From Asterias amurensis (taxonomy: Eukaryota > Echinodermata > Asteroidea > Forcipulatida > Asteriidae), in the NCBI RefSeq assembly GCF_032118995.1, contig NC_092661.1:1552501-1616500 (forward strand): 64,000 nt of DNA, read 5' to 3'. This document shows positions 39,201 through 57,846 of this stretch, one piece after another. The stretch's first letter is position 1; each line of letters opens with the position of its first letter. The notes below the pieces were generated by a model that ran no database searches, was not told the origin of the DNA, and worked only from the letters and a program-made list of their open reading frames with translations. The translations under genes were made by a program, and so were the position numbers.

Positions 39201-42200
39201 GAGCTTTAGTTCGGTGCTCTTATCCACTCGGCCACGGCACCCTTTGTGAAAGCCAGCAGCAAGAGCTGGTCAACCGTTCAATTTCATGCTATGCAAATTA
39301 GTTCTCTTGTTTGTAAGAATCAGTTGATTCTTAAAGACCCTGGACACTTTTGGTAATTGTGAAAGACCAGTCTTCTCACTTTGTGTATCTCAACATATGC
39401 ATAAAATAACAAACCTGAGAAAATTTGAGGTGAATCGGTCGTTGAAGTTGCGAGATAATAATGAAAGAAAAAACACCTTTGTCACACGAAGTCGTGTGCT
39501 TTCAGATGCTTGATTTCGAGACCTCAAATTTTAAATCTGAGGTCTCAAAATGGAAAATTACTTCTTTCTCGAAAACTACGTCACTTTAGAGGGAGGCGTT
39601 TCTCACAATGTTTTATACTATCAACAGCTCCCCATTGCTCGTTACCAAGTCAGGTTTTATACTAATAATTATTTTGAGTAACTACCAATAGTGTCCACTG
39701 CCTTTAAAACTATAACTTCAAGTGGAGCGACCGATCTGTTGCAACAGGGAAATCTCTCCAAAAGGATTTTCATAGCTGTTTGACGAAATACCTTATTGAA
39801 GAGACAGTAGATGATGACATTGAACATACTGTTGCTGACCAGCAGCCAGTACGTTAGAAACTGCACCCAGTCTGGAGCAGGTACACCTGATGTAGTCTCC
39901 ACCACTCTCATAGTAAAAAACGGAGTGTAGCATCCAGCAAACGTCAACGTAACAACAAGAAATGTCTTAAGGGCTTTGTTGTCATTGTTGGCCTCATTGT
40001 TGCCATTTTGATTCAGTCGCTGTTCATGTTGGCGACTGATTTTAATCAATCGATAGTAAATTAGTGACATTGTTGACGTGGGAACTATATCTATAAGAAA
40101 CAGTGCTCCATAATGCATGAATGTTGAGATGTTTGAATAATCACAAATTAGCTTGATTTTATCATATTCTGGTAACGCCTTGGCTCCGAATTTTACAGCA
40201 ATACTAAAAGCTAAACTGATTATCGCCAGGAAAACCACAGCCATTTTAACTCGAGATGGGGTACACCACACAGGAAACTTGTAGGGTCGGGTTACAGCCA
40301 GGAACCGTTCAATGTTAATACAAACAATCGAAAGTATGGACATTCCGAAACAAAATGTCGAACTAAGGGAGAATAATTCACAGCCCAGATCGCCAACAGG
40401 CCACCTGTCCATAGCAGATGCTGCAATACTGAGTGTTGCTAAAAAGCCAATCAGAAGGTCGTACACAGCCAGTGAAGTCATCAAAATCTTGGTAGTTTCA
40501 GCTAAGTTGGAGACACGGCGTGTCACGGCAATTGAGAAAATATTCCCAGATATAATCAGCAGTGCAATGATGGCGATGAAACAAGTACGGAGTGCGACGA
40601 GGACAAGGGACAGACCCACAGAGTCTGTGGATGTGGAGTTCATATTCACAGCTGACATTGTCGTTTTTGTTCAGCAAATCCAATCTTCAACAATATTAGA
40701 GCCTTTTGACTCTTACCTCAAGTTTATAGTAACTGTTCTCAACCGAATATCCGTCAAATGGTTTGTGTTCTTCCTCAACGCTTCCAACACCAATTCCTGT
40801 TCTTCAGTATCAGCACAGTTTTTCGTTGGCATTAATAACTACTTGCCAGTTGCACTTGAATAGGCAGATTCTGTTGCTCGTGATCATGTGTAGCCTTATG
40901 GAGGTACAACTTGACAGTTACATGTGTTGTCGTCAGCTTGAATATGAAAGGTTGTTAAGCACAAACACACTGGCAGAGTATTATACGAACACAGCTATTG
41001 CCGTGCCATGCAGAAGTAGAAGTGTCTTCTTAATAATTCACAAGTCAAAACTTGAATGGAGACACAACTTAACAGTGACTTTCATGGACACGATAGTCGT
41101 CAACTTGGATATGATATGTTGTAGTTAAAGCACAAACACACTAGCAGAGCATCTTATGAACACAGCTATCGCAGTGCCATGCAGAAGTAGAAGTGTCTTC
41201 TTAATAAATCACAAGTCAAAACTTGAATGGAGACACAGCTTGACAGTGACTTACATGGACACGATAGTCGTCAACTTGGATATGATATGTTGTAGTTAAA
41301 GCACAAACACACTGGCAGAGTATCTTATGAACACAGCTATCGCAGTGCCATGCAGAAGTAGAAGTGTCTTCTTAATAAATCACAAGTCAAAACTTGAATG
41401 GAGACACAGCTTGACAGTGACTTACATGGACACGATAGTCGTCAACTTGGATATGATATGTTGTAGTTAAAGCACAAACACACTGGCAGAGTATCTTACG
41501 AACACAGCTATTGCCGTGCCATGCAGAAGTAGAAGTGTCTTCTTAATAATTCACAAGTCAAAACTTGAATGGAGACGCAACTTGACAGTGACTTTCATGG
41601 ACACGATAGTCGTCAACTTGGATATGATATGTTGTAGTTAAAGCACAAACACACTGGCAGAGTATCTTATGAACACAGCTATCGCAGTGCCATGCAGAAA
41701 TACAAGTGTCTTGTTAATAATACAATCTACAGAGTGGTCAATAGTGTCACTGATTGCTGCTTATACCCAATTAGGTCAGCCTTCAGAAAATACAAAACAC
41801 ATCTATCGTTTGAAATGCCATGAAAGAAAGATATAAGTGTCCAGTTATATTACAATCCAGAGATTGGTAGTTGGCATCATGGATTGCCAGTTTATTACAA
41901 ACAGACGTCATCCTTATAATCAAAAATCCATAATGATAGCCTTGCCCTTGTATTCAGCACGATTGCAGTGACCAGCGAAGCGAACTCTGATTTGACCATT
42001 AATAAGAGAAATTGTTGTCAAGTGTTGAACTCAATTTTATGGTGGAATATTTGACTTATTTTATTTGTATGCGTTTTCTATAACTGGTTTGGTTAATTTG
42101 TTTTGTAACACTGTGTTCTTTTATTTAACAGTTTGTGAAGGAAGACTACACGTTGGACGTCATTCTTGAAATGATGACAAGAAAAGATCTGCGTCACATG

Positions 42201-56886: not shown

Positions 56887-57846
56887 ATGTCAACTGTGAA
56901 CATGAACTCTACATCCACATACTCTGTGGGTCTGTCCCCAGTCCTCATCGCACTCCGTACTTGTTTCATCGCCATCATTGCACTGCTGATTATATCTGGG
57001 AATATTCTTTCAATTGCCGTGACACACCGGGTAACCAGCTTAGCTGACAGCACCAAGGTTCTGATGACATCACTGGCTGTATCCGATCTCATGGTTGGAT
57101 TTTGTGCACTAGTCAGTGTTGTAGCATCTGCTCTGGACAGCTGGCCTTTTGGTGATGTGGGCTGCGATCTGATAAACTTTTTCTTCATTTGGTGCTTCGC
57201 AATGTCCACAATTTCGATAATTTCTATTAACATTGAACGGTTTATAGCTATAACCCGACCCTACAAGTTTCCTATGTGGTGTAGTAGATCCCGGATTAAA
57301 CTGGTTGTGCTTTTCTTGTCATTGCTCGCTTTATGTTTTAGTACATCTTCTAAGATTTCATTACAAGTATCTGCAGAATTTAATAACATACAGCAAGTAT
57401 GTGAATATGCGAACGTCCCAACATACCCTTTGGTGTTAACTCTTCTTTTGGGGGATATATTTCCAACAATATTGATGTCATATATTTACTATCGTTTGAT
57501 TAAAATCAGTCGCCAACATGAGCAGCGCCTGAATCAAAACGGCAACAACGAGGCAAACAATAATCATGACAACAAAGCTCTCAAGACATTCCTTGTTGTT
57601 ACGTTGACATTTTCTGGATGTTACACACCTTTTTTAACCATGCAAATTGTGAGGTCATTACCAGGAAAGTTTATTCCAGATGGGCTGCAGTTTTTTACAT
57701 TGTGGTTGGTGGTCAGCAACAGTATGTTCAATGTCATCATCTACTGTCTCTTCAATAAGGTATTTCGTCAAACAGCTAAGAAAATCCTCTTTGAGACATT
57801 TCCCTGTTGCAAAAGATCGATCGCCCCAGTTGAAGTTCACCTATAG
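56887..57846 (+). CDS. Intronless rhodopsin-class GPCR (copy 4)
   Basis: A 319-residue receptor starting [11 protein letters not shown] (glycosylation site near residue 7). TM1 GN at 38-39, TM2 Asp67, Cys93, ERF at 117-119, Cys172 in loop 2, FSGCYTPF in TM6, NVIIY at 282-286, and CC at 307-308. Its C-terminus is SIAPVEVHL then TAG; copy 1 has the same SVAPLEV stretch before its MITE-derived tail, so this is the ancestral end. TM3-TM5 are clearly different from copy 3 although TM1-TM2 and loop 3 are nearly the same at DNA level. Ligand unknown. Confidence 0.92.
   Translation: MSTVNMNSTSTYSVGLSPVLIALRTCFIAIIALLIISGNILSIAVTHRVTSLADSTKVLMTSLAVSDLMVGFCALVSVVASALDSWPFGDVGCDLINFFFIWCFAMSTISIISINIERFIAITRPYKFPMWCSRSRIKLVVLFLSLLALCFSTSSKISLQVSAEFNNIQQVCEYANVPTYPLVLTLLLGDIFPTILMSYIYYRLIKISRQHEQRLNQNGNNEANNNHDNKALKTFLVVTLTFSGCYTPFLTMQIVRSLPGKFIPDGLQFFTLWLVVSNSMFNVIIYCLFNKVFRQTAKKILFETFPCCKRSIAPVEVHL

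Follow-up and report, generated by a model that had tools for sequence, protein, structure and literature searches.

The window, a 64,000-nucleotide stretch of the Asterias amurensis genome, holds four intronless class-A GPCR genes, termed R1 to R4, each of which is a complete ORF:

39669..40658, minus strand: R1, intronless class-A GPCR of 329 aa, complete ORF
50377..51312, minus strand: R2, intronless class-A GPCR of 311 aa, complete ORF
54428..55390, plus strand: R3, intronless class-A GPCR of 320 aa, complete ORF
56887..57846, plus strand: R4, intronless class-A GPCR of 319 aa, complete ORF

All four genes gave full-length matches to Pfam 7tm_1 (E 1.5e-36 to 1.5e-40; bit scores of 126.7-139.8, cut-off 30.5), and their proteins were 59-71% identical in pairwise comparisons. 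AlphaFold predictions for the four proteins had a mean pLDDT of 37.5 and were unusable. Read by eye, the receptor alignment retained N1.50, D2.50 and P6.50, with DRY mostly present as ERY or ERF, W6.48 mostly as Y, and NPxxY as NVxxY, under a generic class-A residue numbering that we take to apply here. The segment [16 protein letters not shown], also read by eye, has both the L and the D of the OR motif LxxPxYxxxxxLxxxD and lacks its P and Y. This motif lies around ICL1-TM2 and, in the excerpted text of PMC7042368, is described as shortened to LxxxD in some echinoderm clades.

The receptors form part of a family with at least 31 uninterrupted copies in the genome. Searching gave at least 68 matches at E<=1e-15 (122 of 687 candidates scored), and we analysed the closest 31 of the 68, the remaining 37 being omitted as distant or partial. 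ORFs were 309-339 aa long in all 31 extracted members, 21 of which lie within 0.44 Mb of one chromosome (C14, 1.592-2.033 Mb), so that single-exon genes in a tandem array, a feature of echinoderm OR-like genes, are present here. The core set comprised 13 genes, with L010 omitted as a near copy of L009; the trees omitted L010, five of the six KRQ-type genes and L032. The genes are best explained as belonging to a chemoreceptor-like echinoderm family whose members are single-exon class-A GPCRs, and this family resemblance makes a chemosensory role for R1 to R4 plausible.

Comparison of the four genes revealed two homogenised blocks and an intervening diversified segment in each, listed below with the evidence for each assignment in brackets. 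The 5' block spans codon columns 19-66 (TM1 to mid-TM2), the loop-3 block columns 216-258 and the diversified TM3-TM5 segment columns 105-209.

40473..40616, minus strand: R1 homogenised 5' block (identity, plateau)
51142..51285, minus strand: R2 homogenised 5' block (identity, plateau)
54473..54616, plus strand: R3 homogenised 5' block (identity, plateau)
56929..57072, plus strand: R4 homogenised 5' block (identity, genome matches)
39945..40061, minus strand: R1 homogenised loop-3 block (tract test, identity)
50611..50730, minus strand: R2 homogenised loop-3 block (tract test, identity)
55028..55150, plus strand: R3 homogenised loop-3 block (tract test, identity)
57484..57606, plus strand: R4 homogenised loop-3 block (tract test, identity, genome matches)
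40080..40382, minus strand: R1 diversified TM3-TM5 (dN/dS, identity)
50749..51051, minus strand: R2 diversified TM3-TM5 (dN/dS, identity)
54707..55009, plus strand: R3 diversified TM3-TM5 (dN/dS, identity)
57163..57465, plus strand: R4 diversified TM3-TM5 (dN/dS, identity)

Mean DNA identity over the six R1-R4 pairs was 0.745 for the whole gene, 0.926 for columns 19-66 and 0.953 for loop 3 (220-258) versus 0.607 for TM3-TM5 (105-213), with intermediate values for ICL2 (0.778) and TM7/helix 8 (0.830). The mosaic of near-identical and divergent parts noted in the sequence-only reading was thus borne out, although its description of the first part as TM1-TM2 needs correcting: near-identity begins at the start codon, extends roughly as far as D2.50 (mid-TM2) and fades over codons 63-74, and the outer half of TM2 is variable. 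Both homogenised stretches fall within the gene's two longest runs free of a variable pocket codon. At codons for the same amino acid, silent mismatch among R1-R4 was 0.100 in the 5' block and 0.124 in loop 3 versus 0.336 elsewhere (permutation p for lowered mismatch 0.00005 and 0.001, respectively), and the pattern therefore reflects neither chance nor protein conservation alone. A 164-base query from the R4 5' block (56932-57095) matched the genome at 25 places: one is a short fragment, and the other 24 fall in as many of the 31 family genes. Pseudogene donors were rejected on this basis. All 16 matches to a 138-base R4 loop-3 query (57481-57618) lay in family genes.

We examined how silent divergence in the 5' block changes with divergence of the rest of the gene, using 190 pairs of 20 block-bearing genes, which are not independent pairs. 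As rest-of-gene pS rose through bins of 0.05, 0.21, 0.35, 0.43, 0.55, 0.67 and 0.74, block pS was 0.03, 0.13, 0.07, 0.11, 0.14, 0.13 and 0.13, levelling off near 0.13 with the remainder of the gene at up to 0.74. The protein-conserved ICL2 and TM7/H8 served as within-gene controls in place of another receptor array (a genome query with L041 to find such an array gave four matches including L041 itself, too few to use); their pS was 0.68-0.78 in old pairs, that is, their DNA was not homogenised. The low block pS could stem from selection on synonymous sites, if silent change is forbidden by a DNA or RNA element (for translation start, regulation or receptor choice) located in the initial 150-200 bases and in loop 3. 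In old pairs the 5' edge of the block coincides with the start codon, which fits such an element, as does the block/rest synonymous ratio of 0.55 (95% CI 0.27-1.02) in eight young pairs, and there may be a mild local silent slowdown of the 5' block in young pairs, with a ratio of 0.55-0.65. Constant constraint at a ratio of 0.55 nevertheless predicts a block pS of 0.58 in old pairs (lower bound 0.40), and 0.128 was observed (jackknife 0.113-0.138); counts from four young and seven old pairs differed likewise (p = 0.0016, uncorrected for saturation; L020 occurs twice among the young pairs of these dating tests). Ten family members are also far freer in the block, namely the six KRQ-type genes (pS 0.65-0.70), C6 (0.49), two C21 genes (0.53) and C20:13513 (0.76), and silent change in loop 3 of young pairs was not lowered (ratio 1.44). 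We therefore regard selection on synonymous sites as an improbable explanation.

The silent pattern in loop 3 was weaker. Its pS was 0.20-0.23 at rest-of-gene pS of 0.3-0.5, about equal to the control segments (0.21-0.27), fell clearly below them only at 0.5-0.6 (0.20 vs 0.46), and climbed to 0.49 and 0.64 beyond 0.6; the young versus old count test gave p = 0.057.

Tract permutation and phylogenetic tests pointed to the same two regions. Tracts were detected at p<=0.001 in 44 of 78 core pairs, 42 of these 44 covering codons 25-45. When columns 1-68 were removed, 28 of 78 pairs remained at p<0.01, every one covering column 250 in loop 3/TM6, and removal of both blocks left two pairs of 78, or three at slightly different limits. 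The 5' block data rejected the gene-body topology (AU 8e-8, SH 0.0042) as well as the groupings C1+KRQ (AU 0.018) and C14:1874 with its gene-body relatives (AU 0.0046); the C6+C20 clade was rejected by AU only (0.039; SH 0.067) and C12+C10 was not rejected (AU 0.081), single-clade tests being weak because the 5' block is short. Conflict between the loop-3 and gene-body trees was marginal (AU 0.021, SH 0.058). Fourfold-site GC in the 13 participating genes was 0.49 in the blocks versus 0.35 elsewhere, compared with 0.40/0.36 and 0.41/0.37 in non-participants (paired Wilcoxon p 0.00024 over the 13 genes, an optimistic value since the blocks are shared and the genes are not independent).

Conflict between block and rest-of-gene trees, together with the same block in scattered clades, would also arise if unequal crossing-over or 5'-end capture had repeatedly joined a common 5' end to different receptor bodies. 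Among the pairs listed, some closer ones do share sequence far upstream, for example C14:1619/C14:1609 from -511. In 102 old pairs, by contrast, upstream identity was 0.38 over the first 10 bases and then 0.24-0.30, so that only background similarity is left more than about 10 bases ahead of the start codon (ungapped comparison; small indels could mask some similarity), and a second homogenised block in mid-gene requires double exchanges, which amount to conversion in effect. Such chimeras are thus very improbable, and sharing of promoters or 5' ends was rejected on the same old-pair upstream identity, under the same caveat of small indels.

The diversified segments showed the opposite behaviour. 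We assigned pocket and G-protein-facing positions from a generic residue list that we take to hold for these receptors, anchored on conserved residues; an 8-column insertion in L030 shifts the TM2 positions, and change counts were equal with those columns omitted. In seven disjoint young pairs, dN/dS at pocket positions was 1.69 versus 0.49 elsewhere (Fisher p 0.0007, for pocket against rest and not against 1), and outer TM3 had 24 nonsynonymous changes to one synonymous in young duplicates (p = 0.010, post hoc, as columns 105-121 were chosen after sliding windows). Entropy in the core set was 1.81 for the pocket versus 0.83 for other TM positions (mapping without TM2 positions). These results uphold the earlier proposal that the binding pocket diversifies in TM3-TM5; we looked for uniform synonymous divergence along the genes with no raised dN/dS in TM3-TM5, and found the opposite. 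Protein-level constraint combined with relaxed or positive pocket selection, with no exchange between genes, fits the near-invariant G-protein-facing positions (in young pairs, 279 such sites show a single nonsynonymous change) and the highly variable pocket, but it requires uniform synonymous divergence and leaves unexplained why homogenisation of silent sites in old pairs affects the 5' block and not the protein-conserved ICL2 and TM7/H8, making it the least credible of the alternatives. In the excerpted text of PMC7042368, echinoderm OR-like genes are described as evolving under purifying selection, a view to which the pocket signal stands in contrast.

Regional gene conversion of the two blocks, limited by selection, is very probably the best explanation overall. 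The earlier preference for conversion over constraint is sustained by the silent plateau of the 5' block, which no matching slowdown in young pairs accompanies, and by the agreement of tract tests and trees. Support for conversion is strong for the 5' block and moderate for loop 3, where we consider it probable. The homogenised parts do not, as had been proposed, make up the inner face of the receptor: the strongest block comprises the whole of TM1, including its outer half, plus inner TM2, and ICL2 and TM7/helix 8 are left out. We know of no role for TM1 as a G-protein contact. Short-tract conversion between paralogs would repeatedly overwrite two stretches of about 120-190 bp. One reaches from the start codon into the middle of TM2; the other covers loop 3 together with the adjoining inner ends of TM5 and TM6. 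Tracts may be kept from spreading or persisting elsewhere both by selection favouring change at pocket residues (TM3-TM5, TM6, TM7), which would remove tracts running into the pocket, and by lost DNA homology in these parts.

A number of copies located on other chromosomes apparently no longer take part in exchange, and the shared block seems to be eroding in them. Block pS was 0.20 for C1 and 0.30 for C10, below the C6, C21 and C20:13513 values given above, and tract tests gave 0 of 13 for C10 and C6 and 2 of 13 for C12. For the C20 and C12 copies, block divergence (0.13-0.15) lies inside the range seen in cluster genes (0.06-0.17, R1 being 0.17), so the suggestion that leaving the cluster ends exchange draws on C1, C10, C6 and the older copies only. 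Proximity is not sufficient for exchange either, because the KRQ-type genes, though members of this cluster, do not share the 5' block.

The nearest precedent comes from the clustered protocadherins, which undergo regional conversion; the starfish case is a two-block form of it in complete intronless GPCRs. As described in excerpts on the clustered protocadherins of fugu (PMC1852091) and anole (PMC2764143), tandem paralogs there share a stretch that is near-identical even at silent sites and raised in third-position GC while other parts are diversified; the unit is a variable exon and its 3' stretch is homogenised, whereas each starfish gene is a whole intronless GPCR in which two homogenised stretches, apart from each other, lie among pocket-coding parts. 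The protocadherin-type features found here are locally low synonymous divergence (clear in the 5' block, weaker in loop 3), raised silent GC and tree conflict. Crown-of-thorns ApORs and sea urchin surreal-GPCRs are likewise echinoderm rhodopsin-class receptors, many of them in tandem arrays and in both orientations, with a proposed chemosensory role, according to the sections of PMC5442662 consulted. These sections report an average of 522 aa for 63 ApORs, longer than the receptors here, and "almost no similarity" between loop 3 of genes in the scaffold-10 cluster, whereas here loop 3 ranks with the best-conserved parts; the term "gene conversion" does not occur in that paper. Vertebrate olfactory and vomeronasal clusters are also GPCR arrays for which gene conversion and positive selection have been reported, but the excerpts of PMC1995454 and PMC2644715 describe mosaic receptors, homogenisation of whole coding regions or single converted pairs, unlike the two fixed near-identical blocks across about twenty starfish genes.

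It is conceivable, though we hold it rather unlikely, that these genes are a single-exon repertoire of "constant" and "variable" parts, in which conversion is kept since an identical TM1-TM2 and loop-3 module serves one shared trafficking, pairing or G-protein partner and only pocket codons are free. If so, block divergence may date the end of exchange in off-cluster copies (C1 0.20, C10 0.30, C6 0.49, C21 0.53), unlike the saturated rest of the gene. The family offers a case within one genome of a recognition repertoire that diversifies its binding sites while exchange between genes holds other parts constant. The plateau in silent divergence separates exchange from simple constraint, and whole-gene trees of such families mix two histories.

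R1 to R4, four intronless genes each with a complete open reading frame (ORF) for a class-A GPCR, all lie inside the window, which spans C14:1552501-1616500:

39669-40658, minus strand, R1
50377-51312, minus strand, R2
54428-55390, plus strand, R3
56887-57846, plus strand, R4

A protein search of the genome (491,506,623 bases, 23 contigs; the published Asterias amurensis assembly is 491.53 Mb with 22 chromosomes of 13.43-38.00 Mb, PMC10625585) gave at least 68 matches at E<=1e-15, and the 31 closest were analysed. All 31 have uninterrupted ORFs of 309-339 aa; 21 lie within C14:1,592,172-2,033,061, where R1-R4 are the leftmost four, and the other ten are on contigs C1, C6, C10, C12 (two), C20 (three) and C21 (two). 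By eye, NPxxY reads NVxxY in the 31-member alignment, and the position that we take to be W6.48 is mostly Y. A KRQ-type gene (one of six in the C14 cluster) stands about 3 kb from a core-type gene (the core being 13 cluster genes) near 1903/1906, 1944/1947 and 1957/1960 kb, and this repeated pair is likely a recent tandem duplication unit. The window also contains the following features.

13978-14050, plus strand, tRNA family match (32.3 bits, just above the gathering score of 29)
30813-30858, minus strand, match to RF00032, the histone 3' stem-loop, at 36.1 bits against a gathering score of 34; no ORF judged histone-like by eye among the eight of at least 60 aa at 30000-32500
40929-41721, 171-bp unit repeated in tandem 4.7 times (94% matches), the array beginning some 270 bp upstream from the start codon of R1
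59770-60345, minus strand, PAN-domain ORF (Pfam PAN_1, E 7e-8)
60991-61605, (ATT) x 205 microsatellite, 99% matches
62015-63451, (TATCAC) x 239.5 microsatellite, 99% matches; both microsatellites are very long, near-perfect and a source of long spurious ORFs

The sequence-only reading, that R1-R4 are nearly identical in DNA across TM1-TM2 and intracellular loop 3 and diverge in TM3-TM5, was confirmed by mean identities of 0.926 (codon columns 19-66) and 0.953 (loop 3) against 0.607 (TM3-TM5). At codons for the same amino acid, silent mismatch was 0.100 in the 5' block (start codon to mid-TM2; permutation p = 0.00005) and 0.124 in loop 3 (p = 0.001), compared with 0.336 elsewhere. The synonymous divergence (pS) profile over 78 pairs of the 13 core genes gave 0.05-0.15 for windows within columns 19-68, 0.40 for the transition window 59-78, 0.33-0.38 for loop-3 windows within 221-262 and 0.44-0.69 for all remaining windows from column 69 onward. 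Single pairs had further low stretches (e.g. R1-R3, columns 111-130, pS 0.06).

Such silent-site similarity could reflect either gene conversion or constraint; simple constraint on the block's silent sites should lower divergence in young pairs (recent duplicates) as well. Across 190 pairs from 20 block-bearing genes, 5' block pS stayed at 0.07-0.14 while pS of the rest of the gene rose from 0.21 to 0.74. The young-pair block/rest ratio was 0.65 in four pairs and 0.55 (CI 0.27-1.02) in eight, which predicts a block pS of 0.40-0.58 in old pairs, compared with an observed 0.128 (jackknife range 0.113-0.138; young versus old count test uncorrected for saturation, p = 0.0016). The case for conversion over constraint is weaker for loop 3, where young pairs had a ratio of 1.44 and old pairs one of 0.79 (p = 0.057). 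Loop-3 pS was about 0.20-0.23 at rest pS 0.2-0.6 and then rose to 0.49 and 0.64; the control segments conserved as protein (ICL2 and TM7/H8) gave 0.27, 0.21, 0.27, 0.46, 0.68 and 0.78 in these rest-pS bins, and loop 3 was clearly below them only at rest pS >=0.5.

Pairwise run tests on silent matches detected a tract at p<=0.001 in 44/78 core pairs, 42 of them over codons 25-45. With columns 1-68 removed, 28/78 had a tract at p<0.01, every one covering column 250; with both blocks removed, tracts remained in 2/78 (3/78 with slightly different limits, two at the C-terminal end). The gene-body tree was rejected by the 5' block (AU 8e-8, SH 0.0042) and only marginally by loop 3 (AU 0.021, SH 0.058), and a C12+C10 grouping was not rejected by the block data (AU 0.081).

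Off the cluster, the 5' block is also common to C12 genes, two C20 genes and the C1 gene, which outside it are close to saturation (pS 0.66-0.73). It is not common to the six KRQ-type genes, despite their location within the C14 cluster, or to the C6, C21 or C20:13513 genes; the C10 gene is intermediate. Tracts with core partners at p<=0.001 numbered 11/13 and 13/13 for the two C20 genes, 13/13 for C14:1877, 12/13 for C1, 2/13 for each C12 gene and 0/13 for C10, C6, one KRQ-type gene, one C21 gene and C20:13513. C14:2008 and C14:1874 differ at 2/144 block bases although their bodies are at pS 0.75. Block divergence was 0.06-0.17 among cluster genes and 0.13 to 0.76 for off-chromosome copies, as if some had stopped exchanging on leaving the cluster; C20 and C12 overlap the cluster range, and exchange between chromosomes is conceivable. 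The C6 family gene has, about 0.4-0.5 kb upstream, an additional short piece of the block (C6:922431-922496, 79% identity to the R4 query).

Homogenisation in 102 old pairs begins at the start codon, ungapped upstream identity being 0.38 over the nearest ten bases and 0.24-0.30 beyond them, and fades over codons 63-74; some closer pairs align far upstream. Fourfold GC in participating genes was 0.49 in the blocks versus 0.35 elsewhere, and in non-participants 0.40/0.36 and 0.41/0.37. Raised GC3 was taken as conversion evidence in fugu protocadherins (PMC1852091). Protocadherins are already known for regional conversion, and gene conversion is known in vertebrate chemoreceptors. In the published crown-of-thorns starfish olfactory receptor (ApOR) cluster loop 3 is reported to have almost no similarity, the opposite of the R1-R4 family. 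The two-block pattern was not found in titles and abstract openings of the open-licence papers listed on gene conversion in chemoreceptors, odorant receptors, sea urchin surreal-GPCRs, echinoderm GPCRs or Asterias chemoreceptors.

Diversification was measured in seven disjoint young pairs at 41 positions presumed, from general knowledge of receptors, to line the pocket. These carried 54 nonsynonymous and 10 synonymous changes (dN/dS 1.69), compared with 90 and 57 at non-pocket positions (dN/dS 0.49; Fisher p 0.0007), and the 18 G-protein-facing positions had one nonsynonymous change in 279 sites. With limits set after viewing the pS profile, outer TM3 had 24 nonsynonymous versus 1 synonymous change, and outer TM4 to outer TM5 47.5 versus 9.5 (ratio 1.54). 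Conversion requires near-identical DNA, which silent and pocket changes would probably destroy except where constrained codons follow one another over a long run. Calculated from the anchor columns, the two longest runs free of variable pocket positions extend from the start to 2.57 (~70 codons) and from 5.47 to 6.48 (58 codons), those at ICL2 and the C-terminal end being shorter (~45 codons). Positions 1.35 and 1.39 are on the pocket list yet invariant, which may itself be a product of exchange. Both homogenised blocks fall inside the two longest runs.
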